IMG/VR virus record: IMGVR_UViG_3300021961_011210
Coordinates: 1 to 64,000 of that record
Length of the DNA stretch: 64,000 bases
Direction: 5' to 3' (one strand)
Source: a virus
The notes below the pieces were generated by a model. That model saw only the letters and a program-made list of their open reading frames with translations, made no database searches and had not been told where the DNA came from. Shown one piece after another: positions 14,525-17,309 of the stretch. The position numbers were made by a program, and so were the translations under genes. Positions within the stretch are counted from its first letter, which is position 1, and every line of letters begins with the position of its first letter.

Positions 14525-14749
14525 TTGTACCTCGGGCCGGACTCGAACCGGCACGGACATCACTGTCCAAGGGATTTTCTTACCACTATAGTTTTCACTA
14601 CCATATAATGTTTGTAGTCTGGACTTTACCTCAACCATAGTTTTGCAACCTTAGGCCACTCCCGTCAAGTCTCTACACCTTCCCTTTCGGGCTTGGCTCG
14701 GGGTTACCATTTAAAAGGATTCTCCGAATTTGAGAGTGTGTGCACAATA

Positions 14750-15199
14750 TCATTTCTGATATTTAGCTCCGATATTTTTTCCTCTGTATGTGTGAGTTTG
14801 TGAATGACAATTAGGACATATAATCCTCAAGTTTTCTATCTTGTGATTAGTCTTATTACCATCGATATGATCTAGTTCTAATGACAATTCTTGTCCCAAC
14901 CAACTATCAATACCACAAACTTCACAGTTTTTATTTTTTACACCTTCACTTATCAAACGTTTTCTCAATTTGTTCGTTTGGTAAGTCGGATGTTTACCTA
15001 ATAAAATTTCATCCAAAGAGATTTTAGTTCCGTTCCCTTTTTTTTTCATACCTTTACCTGATTGGTTGGGTGCAAAAACTTCAAGAGTTTGTGAGTAACG
15101 TTTCAGTGTTTTGTAATTTATCCCTAAAATTCTTGCTGCGTCTGCCATAGAATTTGAATTTTTACAAACTTCACGTATTCTATTTATGTCTATTTTCAT
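14750..15199 (-). CDS. Intron-encoded HNH homing endonuclease
   Basis: 149 aa from the ATG at 15199 (MKIDINRIREV). The N-terminal half carries a helix-turn-helix-like DNA-binding segment (SMADAARILGINYKTLKRYS). The C-terminal half has an HNH domain: CEVCGIDSW, ELDHIDGNKTNH, then NLRIICPNCHSQT, with both zinc CxxC pairs and the catalytic His. It should cut intron-less tRNA-Leu alleles so that the intron is copied in. A TATTTAT motif just before this ATG overlaps the alternative upstream ATG, favouring the chosen start. Confidence 0.9.
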   Translation of the reverse strand: MKIDINRIREVCKNSNSMADAARILGINYKTLKRYSQTLEVFAPNQSGKGMKKKGNGTKISLDEILLGKHPTYQTNKLRKRLISEGVKNKNCEVCGIDSWLGQELSLELDHIDGNKTNHKIENLRIICPNCHSQTHTYRGKNIGAKYQK

Positions 15200-15203
15200 A
15201 TCC

Positions 15204-15210
15204 ATAAATA
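15204..15210 (-). promoter_or_regulatory. Late promoter motif TATTTAT inside the intron
   Basis: Exact 7-mer 4 nt before the ATG at 15199. It would let the endonuclease be expressed late, independent of the tRNA transcript. Confidence 0.45.
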
Positions 15211-15312
15211 CCACACAAGTCAGAAAAAAATCATTTGTGTTTACCAAAGTCCCTCGTGGCTACCTTTACACCACCGAGGCAAAATTTCAAAGAACAGATT
15301 ATGTATCTTACT

Positions 15313-15325: not shown

Positions 15326-15826
15326 TTAATTTGTATAAAAAAACTCTTCAGAAAATTCTTTCCAAATTTTATCTACATGTTCGGATATAACGACAGAAAA
15401 AATATTTGGTTGGTAAGGTTTCAATAATAATTTCATGCCCGCTTCTTCGGGTGTCCTATTATCTTTAATTCCATTACACCTTTTACATGATGTTATCATA
15501 TTCTCCCAAGTATTTTTACCACCTCTCGATTTAGGAATAACGTGGTCTATACTTAGATTTTTTGTGGATAGACAATACCCACATTGATGTCCATCACGAG
15601 CAAAAACTCTTTTTCGATTTACTCGTAAATTTTTCGGACGAAACCGCACGAAGTTGATTAATCGGATTATTAATGGACGAACAAAATTACCAACATTTGT
15701 GACAATATCATTTTCACCCTTTTTAATGACTTCCGCCTTTCCTTTGTTTACTAAAATAAATCCACGTATAAGAGGTACGACGTTAAGTGGTGAGTAATCA
15801 GAATTTAATACTAAAACAGTATCCAT
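15326..15826 (-). CDS. Free-standing HNH endonuclease
   Basis: 166 aa. The N-terminus (VLNSDYSPLNVVPLIRGFIL, about residues 6-25) and the HNH core (CGYCLSTKNLSIDHVIPKS, then GGKNTWENMITSCKRCNGIK) match the common bacterial and phage HNH family often annotated as HNH endonuclease 5. Both zinc-binding CxxC pairs and the DH motif are intact. It is not in an intron but sits next to one, as mobile endonucleases often do. It could be a restriction-like or homing enzyme, or act in packaging; the target is unknown. Confidence 0.85.
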   Translation of the reverse strand: MDTVLVLNSDYSPLNVVPLIRGFILVNKGKAEVIKKGENDIVTNVGNFVRPLIIRLINFVRFRPKNLRVNRKRVFARDGHQCGYCLSTKNLSIDHVIPKSRGGKNTWENMITSCKRCNGIKDNRTPEEAGMKLLLKPYQPNIFSVVISEHVDKIWKEFSEEFFYTN

Positions 15827-16906: not shown

Positions 16907-17309
16907 TGGTGGAGGTGGCGGGAATCGAACCCGCGTCTTGCTCAGTCTAACCACAAAGGACTACATGCTTAGGACAAGGTTTTTCATACCTTCCGAACTA
17001 TCTGAGTTCTTACACCGCTCAGTGACGGCGACAGTCAAGTTGTAATTCGGGGTGACTATACCCCGTTTTGTTTCTTTTATGGTAGAAACCACACCGTAAG
17101 GACTTCTGTTCATAGGTTTAATGTCCATCGACCCGATTCGCTGTTGCGTCTTACGCTACAGTTACTTCTTCAGTACGTAGAAGACCTACAGCCTGAAGTT
17201 TTGCGAAAGTTTCGCCATTTAAAAATTGCCTCCATAGATTTAAGTGATAGGAAACCTCTCACTGCATGCCCCGTATGACTAACCCTGCCAATCAATACCG
17301 GTCACCCCC
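16907..17309 (-). ncRNA. ssrA: Transfer-messenger RNA (tmRNA)
   Basis: 403 nt on the - strand. The 5' end GGGGGTGACC and the 3' end GGGTTCGATTCCCGCCACC-TCC-ACCA pair to form a tRNA-Ala-like acceptor (GGGGGTG with CACCTCC) and carry an encoded CCA at 16909-16907. The T arm is GCGGG-TTCGATT-CCCGC. The resume codon GGC at 17216 opens a tag of 21 codons beginning GETFAKL and ending EEVTVA before TAA. tmRNA with SmpB rescues ribosomes stalled on broken mRNA; no smpB gene is visible here, so host SmpB would be used. The tag is longer than usual and lacks the ALAA end. A G3-T70 wobble is present in the acceptor. Confidence 0.93.
17151..17216 (-). other. tmRNA tag reading frame
   Basis: 21 codons plus TAA, with the resume codon GGC preceded by an A/T-rich stretch (TTTTTAAAT). 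Charged Ala would precede GET, as in Bacteroidota tags that start GE[NT]. The end EEVTVA differs from the ALAA-type degron that ClpXP recognises. Confidence 0.85.

Follow-up and report, generated by a model that had tools for sequence, protein, structure and literature searches.

The group I intron of the tRNA-Leu(UAA) gene (trnL) is a textbook case of an intron inherited by plastids from cyanobacteria, and its patchy occurrence in bacteria is ascribed to unknown transfers. The initial annotation of a 64,000-nucleotide stretch of viral DNA (hereafter the window) described such an intron in a phage and regarded it as a mobile version that could explain these transfers. This raises the question of whether the phage gene is split by a functional and mobile intron, and of which lineage this intron comes from.

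The window and its phage

The window is part of a 72,885-base IMG/VR virus record (positions 1 to 64,000 of IMGVR_UViG_3300021961_011210). It encodes a terminase, a portal protein and a T4-type major head protein, in agreement with the phage origin initially proposed. The Bacteroidota-like host proposed along with it is only plausible: the proteins closest to its capsid and terminase come from a Flavobacterium phage, uncultured huge phages and a Microcystis phage. Among the leucine codons of 32 genes, UUA is the commonest (42%), followed by UUG (27%). A tRNA-Leu(UAA) would therefore suit the needs of the phage. The window also contains a tmRNA (16907-17309, minus strand; Rfam, 86.7 bits) with an encoded CCA, whose predicted tag is odd in that it ends in VTVA, not ALAA.

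A tRNA-Leu(UAA) gene split after U34

All features of the split gene lie on the minus strand. The 5' exon (15247..15280, 34 nt; GCCTCGG...GACTT, read from 15280 to 15247) runs from the acceptor strand to U34. The 3' exon (14528..14578, 51 nt; AAAATCCC...GGTA, read from 14578 to 14528) runs from A35 to the discriminator A73 and includes a class II variable arm. Once spliced in silico, the exons give 85 nt that ARAGORN calls tRNA-Leu(taa), with the acceptor, D, anticodon, variable and T arms all paired. The class II tRNA-Leu with anticodon UAA read earlier from the sequence was thus recovered. A default ARAGORN scan of the unspliced gene gave no tRNA at this locus, and allowing introns led to a miscall as tRNA-Ser(tga). 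Standard annotation overlooks or miscalls such split genes, and phage tRNA inventories are therefore incomplete. In the last 8.9 kb of the record, outside the window, ARAGORN detected no further tRNA.

Intronless genes were located by searching viral contigs with the joined exons, and a search with the 5' exon added more. Sister phages with an intronless tRNA-Leu(UAA) at the same locus were found in this way (L333, L334, L336, L337 and L338). When the window was compared to L337 by blastn, L337 was contiguous across 11780|11781, while the window match halted at 14578 and restarted at 15247. The insert is therefore exactly 14579..15246, a group I intron of 668 nt whose last base is G (14579). 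Both the insertion after U34 and the terminal G of the initial annotation are thereby fixed by an intronless sibling, and the insertion point is the same in the cyanobacterial introns read here. Altogether, a tRNA-Leu(UAA) gene split by a group I intron, with exact borders, is confirmed.

The sister loci resemble the window beyond the tRNA gene. A second, freestanding HNH gene (15326..15826, minus strand; Pfam HNH_5) lies directly upstream of the tRNA in the window and is kept beside the intronless tRNA in the siblings; it is common to the window, L333, L334, L336-L338 and L341 (66-69% protein identity). Gene 16350 is 47-49% identical between the window and the sister phages, and a Clp-like ATPase, present in two longer sister loci, shows 74-75% identity to that of the window. 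Within the tRNA, the D-arm and anticodon arm are identical in the window and its intronless siblings. The acceptor stems differ (GCCTCGG/CCGAGGT in the window, GCCGACG/CGTCGGT in the siblings), but by paired changes. Since these changes are compensatory, they indicate that the tRNA is under selection. Siblings with and without the intron amount to mobility at one locus.

Ribozyme core

In a 1-kb search, the Rfam group I intron model RF00028 matched the intron with 45 bits (E 5e-10), 5 bits short of its gathering score of 50, which is a curation threshold and not a structural feature. A score under this threshold is not peculiar to the window intron, because the bacterial trnL intron L087 also reaches 45 bits; two viral trnL introns score above it (67.8 and 51.9). 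RF00028 run over the whole record gave no match although the narrow scan did, and the whole-record scan was not counted as a negative. R1, a covariance model of the trnL-type core, gave 111.7 bits (E 1.7e-23), the window being one of its 29 training sequences.

The catalytic core extends over 14619..14734 (minus strand) and comprises P3 (CUCUC/GGGAG), P4 (UCGG/CCGA), P5, P6 (GCC/GGU) with P6a, P7 and P8. In P7, the 5' strand GAGACU (14668..14673) pairs with the 3' strand AGUCC (14621..14625), and the pair types are invariant in 28-29 of the 29 aligned cores; the group I core and the perfect P7 of the initial annotation are both present. The pairings were also assessed by covariation in an alignment of 29 diverse cores, window included, against 500 shuffles. 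Paired cells amounted to 91.4% (74.3% in shuffles), 20 of the 29 pairs were changed on both sides, and compensatory cells numbered 135 (48.5 in shuffles). None of the 500 shuffles matched the observed values, and sliding the pair partners abolished the signal. From its motifs and kinship, the intron is a putative member of subgroup IC3. The weak spots of the predicted ribozyme are an A.C mismatch closing P4 and a poor P10.

The end of the HNH gene holds the guide sequence and P2

P1, left unplaced in the initial annotation, was located at the end of the HNH gene. The guide GGAGCU lies at 14770-14765, and the Rfam alignment sets its GGAGC on the model's 'uGagc'. The internal guide sequence and P1 3' strand, UAUCG-GAG-CU (14765..14774, minus strand, in HNH codons ATC GGA GCT), is predicted to pair with GG(A)CUU|UGGUA at -8.0 kcal/mol, the splice-site wobble being U34.G14769. 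This P1 has flaws, namely a bulged A and several G.U pairs. A guide placed before the HNH gene (CUGACUU) was rejected, as it leaves a C-C mismatch and pairs at only -2.6 kcal/mol. By folding and by the Rfam alignment, P2 is a hairpin AAUAUCA-GAAA-UGAUAUU (14746..14763, minus strand), and its 3' strand contains the HNH stop codon UGA.

The final codons of the HNH gene (ATC GGA GCT AAA TAT CAG AAA TGA) are thus the very bases of the guide and P2: the P1 loop is occupied by the gene, the tail of which specifies the guide together with most of P2. As expected for a reading frame that extends into ribozyme sequence, the tail of the protein (NIGAKYQK) exceeds those of its aligned homologues in length. 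In most trnL introns read here, a guide GAGU or GAGC stands immediately 5' of P2. Gene and guide overlap likewise, at the homologous site, in other introns whose P1 loop houses an endonuclease gene; the guide UGAGUG of L001 and L162, for instance, includes the stop codon UGA.

These features bear on whether the intron is still active. It could be dead, the tRNA being unable to mature, the HNH gene persisting as a selfish gene and the phage using the tRNA-Leu of its host. The P4 mismatch, the weak P10, an HNH gene intruding into P1 and P2 and the sub-threshold Rfam score would all fit such a decayed element. However, P3, P6, P7 and the last G are intact, the exon stems are perfect, with lineage-specific compensatory changes in the acceptor, and the intrusion recurs in other P1-loop introns. 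We therefore consider a dead intron very improbable.

A promoter-like element, TATTTAT (15204..15210, minus strand), lies 4 nt before the start codon of the HNH gene. The motif occurs within 40 nt upstream of 17 of the 69 ORFs of the window (2.25 expected; at most 8 in 500 shuffles). It is likely a phage promoter giving leaderless or near-leaderless transcripts and, given this enrichment, the HNH gene probably has its own phage promoter. Likewise, the gene of I-TevI is preceded by its own promoter. In most of the cases in the window the motif stands 5-17 nt before the start (e.g. 4218, 6773, 11596, 25165 and 32230). A hairpin TATTTAT...ATG...ATAAATA hiding the start codon was also considered. 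This was discarded, the z-score in the window being only -1.5 and the motif being general upstream of the phage ORFs.

The intronic endonuclease and its relatives

The intronic gene (14750..15199, minus strand) encodes a 149-aa protein that matches Pfam HNH with 25.5 bits (cutoff 21.4) and PHROG 10822 with E 9e-37. Its motif, CxxC...LELDHIDGN...N..CPNCH, is intact, with the catalytic His, Asn and His and the CxxC pairs all present, and the CxxC, DH/EH, N and CPNCH positions are invariant across the aligned homologues. The intron thus does carry an HNH endonuclease gene, as first described.

The nearest 11 viral homologues among those fetched (L001-L011) are all located at tRNA-Leu genes, called tRNA-Leu(UAA). 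Three are inside an intron: L001, the closest to the window HNH (61%), in the P1 loop, and L002 and L004 in a later loop before P7. L005 lies 2 nt upstream of an intron-bearing tRNA-Leu(UAA). L003, L007, L008, L009 and L010 lie 2-6 nt upstream of an intronless one (L007 and L008 being near-identical), and L011 overlaps an intronless tRNA-Leu(UAA) on the opposite strand. The L006 homologue is just downstream of a tRNA-Leu in which a 34-nt insert in the anticodon loop was identified by eye. This insert (L006, ~2820-2915; CUU|...CUG|AAAAUC) can form a hairpin, occupies the same anticodon position and is perhaps an intron remnant.

The association with tRNA genes was also apparent in a larger sample. 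A same-strand tRNA was found within 80 nt of the gene end for 36 of 80 HNH homologues and for 81 of 514 control ORFs (16%), the controls being the other ORFs of the same tRNA-rich loci. Among the 36, 15 are at tRNA-Thr(UGU) and 8 at intronless tRNA-Leu(UAA); members of the wider HNH family also precede tRNA-Thr and further tRNAs. One nuclease family is thus seen at successive steps of an association with an intron: beside a bare tRNA gene, beside a split one and inside the intron. As the nearest homologues are all at the same tRNA, the intronic HNH would cut the site that the intron occupies; from this gene neighbourhood, we infer that its target is the tRNA-Leu(UAA) gene.

The nuclease may also be of a freestanding type that acts on tRNA genes and landed in an existing intron, which would then have spread through the second HNH (15326-15826) or by plain recombination. 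Among the homologues fetched, more are indeed freestanding than intronic, and the second HNH also stands beside intronless tRNA genes. In those intronless siblings, however, the second HNH has not brought the intron in, and the nearest homologues of the intronic HNH, whether intronic or not, are all at tRNA-Leu(UAA). We regard this scenario as unlikely, though it is the most probable of the competing explanations.

The most likely reading is that the intron is a homing element of the tRNA-Leu(UAA) gene. More precisely, we estimate at almost nine in ten the probability of a self-splicing trnL-family intron, inserted after U34, whose HNH nuclease would promote homing into intronless tRNA-Leu(UAA) genes. 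The mobility suggested in the initial annotation is consistent with the intronless sister alleles and with the linkage of this HNH family to the tRNA-Leu(UAA) gene. P1 would arise in the precursor RNA through pairing of the last bases of the 5' exon with GGAGCU, close to the 3' end of the HNH gene. Splicing initiated by guanosine is the standard chemistry of group I introns; here, guanosine would attack after U34, and joining of the exons would give the 85-nt tRNA-Leu(UAA), which would read UUA, the commonest leucine codon of the phage. The HNH protein, probably expressed from the promoter within the P1 loop, would cut those tRNA-Leu(UAA) genes of co-infecting phages that lack the intron, and the intron would be copied into them during repair.

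Occurrence in viruses and bacteria

A strict pattern of the intron 3' end matched at least 120 viral stretches, and a looser one gave at least 118 matches in bacterial genomes. The pattern matches listed, together with earlier loci, yielded 190 complete split tRNA-Leu(UAA) genes, all called Leu(taa) by ARAGORN after intron removal: 100 from bacterial genomes, the others from about 90 viral contigs or phage records, one plasmid and the window. The viral introns are mostly bimodal in length (185-300 nt or roughly 670-780 nt). An endonuclease ORF is present in most of the long ones, its location varying between the P1 loop, a site before P7 and other positions. Named carriers include Agrobacterium phage Atu_ph07, whose record has no tRNA annotation for the split gene, the 735-kb phage LR756501, the 595-kb phage LR756511 and the Prevotella Lak phages. 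Viruses are therefore a large and little-noticed reservoir of the tRNA-Leu(UAA) intron.

Endonuclease genes are also found in bacterial trnL(UAA) introns. In several gammaproteobacteria and one acidobacterium (L222, L224, L229, L254, L260, L293, L327 and L324), an HNH gene lies antisense in the intron. The viral intron L108 carries an antisense HNH gene 55-60% identical to these, which points to exchange between phages and bacteria. The window intron, first presented as the mobile version of this intron, is thus not a lone case. This large phage pool, partly equipped with endonuclease genes, provides a concrete and testable vehicle for the transfer of trnL introns.

Two further loci were noted. 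On a Bacteroidota contig with mutS (L228), the tRNA-Leu(UAA) intron clusters with those of phages and adjoins a serine recombinase gene, possibly as a result of transfer from phage to chromosome. The tRNA-Arg gene of a Microcoleus phage (L088, 1308-1593) is interrupted by a group I intron of this kind.

Descent of the intron

The initial annotation stressed a strong resemblance to plastid introns and a cyanobacterial descent. This was examined with viral, alphaproteobacterial, gammaproteobacterial and cyanobacterial introns. The core of the window intron is closest to viral ones (median identity 75.5%, best 80.8%), followed by those of alphaproteobacteria (median 71.4%), gammaproteobacteria (66.7%) and cyanobacteria (62.7%, best 66.0%). 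The P3-P4 likeness first noticed is a general trait of trnL introns in bacteria and viruses, and the cores of cyanobacteria rank with the least similar. A special kinship with plastid or cyanobacterial introns is therefore not supported by these sequences.

Trees were built on 162-168 columns and do not settle the order of the large groups. In the 168-column tree, the window falls in a mostly viral group of 44 (support 83/94) that also holds the intron of the Bacteroidota mutS contig and introns from capsid genes of Pelagibacter-type phages, and cyanobacterial introns come together in a single long-branched clade (100/99). The AU test rejected a grouping of the window with cyanobacteria and proteobacteria (p 0.004), but not with cyanobacteria alone (p 0.502; 0.315 with a second alignment). 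The tree places the window among phage introns, but the AU test leaves a sister relation to cyanobacteria unrejected. The capsid-gene introns, L082 and L089, are placed among phage tRNA-Leu introns, which implies that introns of this type have crossed between tRNA genes and protein-coding genes.

As the initial annotation implies, the cyanobacterial/plastid trnL lineage could have been made mobile and recently passed on by cyanobacteria or their phages. Such a transfer would account for the shared gene and position and is compatible with these AU results. Moreover, L001, whose HNH is the nearest to that of the window, has an intron that groups with cyanobacteria in the tree (96/92). By identity, however, the L001 core is nearer to alphaproteobacterial and viral introns than to cyanobacterial ones, and the low similarity of cyanobacterial cores to the window and their single long-branched clade also argue against this origin, which we judge improbable. 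The opposite direction, in which phages would be a main and old reservoir and a phage homing system, made up of the HNH nuclease and an intron aimed at this tRNA gene, would have seeded bacterial chromosomes and perhaps even given rise to the ancestor of the cyanobacterial and plastid intron, is a speculative proposal to which we give little weight.

Comparison with known systems

There is precedent for bacterial trnL introns, for their horizontal transfer and for HNH-bearing group I introns in phages. The window intron shares with the cyanobacterial/plastid and proteobacterial tRNA-Leu(UAA) introns (IC3 type) the tRNA, the U34 site, the core motifs and the last G, as well as a GAGC/GAGU guide and a P2 hairpin with a GAAA-type loop. 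It differs from them in being phage-borne, in having an HNH gene in the P1 loop and in a core whose sequence identity is clearly higher with viral introns. In protein genes of phages such as T4 (td), SPO1, Twort and Bastille, group I introns occur together with HNH or GIY-YIG endonucleases; the window intron likewise belongs to a phage, is of group I and encodes a homing-type endonuclease, but splits a tRNA gene. Two other nucleases associated with tRNA genes, I-Ssp6803I and T4 SegB, belong to families other than that of the window HNH.

I-Ssp6803I is encoded in a cyanobacterial tRNA-fMet intron (Bonocora and Shub 2001, cited in PMC3984707). Like the window HNH, whose target is deduced, it resides in a tRNA group I intron and is aimed at the anticodon region of a tRNA gene; the tRNA is different and the location is a bacterial chromosome. 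T4 SegB, a freestanding nuclease beside tRNA genes that favours their inheritance (cited in PMC3984707), resembles the freestanding HNH homologues found here, and is not intronic. Horizontal transfer of bacterial trnL introns has been described (Rudi et al. 2002, cited in PMC3984707).

According to the review of Hausner et al. (2014, PMC3984707), all phage introns known until then were in protein-coding genes. In the open-licence papers searched, we found no description of phage trnL(UAA) group I introns or of their endonucleases, which is not proof of absence. Devoto et al. (2019, PMC6784885) reported 'enigmatic' introns in Lak megaphage tRNAs, as the first in phage tRNAs, and named tRNA-Tyr and tRNA-Thr; no group I assignment and no link to tRNA-Leu or to an endonuclease was found in the main text. 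These introns, like that of the window, interrupt phage tRNA genes, and Lak-B1 and Lak-C1 share with the window the anticodon intron of tRNA-Leu(UAA). In these two phages (L084, ~815-1575, and L085, ~825-1560), the tRNA-Leu(UAA) gene apparently contains two group I introns: the first lies in the D-loop after U20 and has an R1 core match (1001-1127; 55 bits), and the second follows U34.
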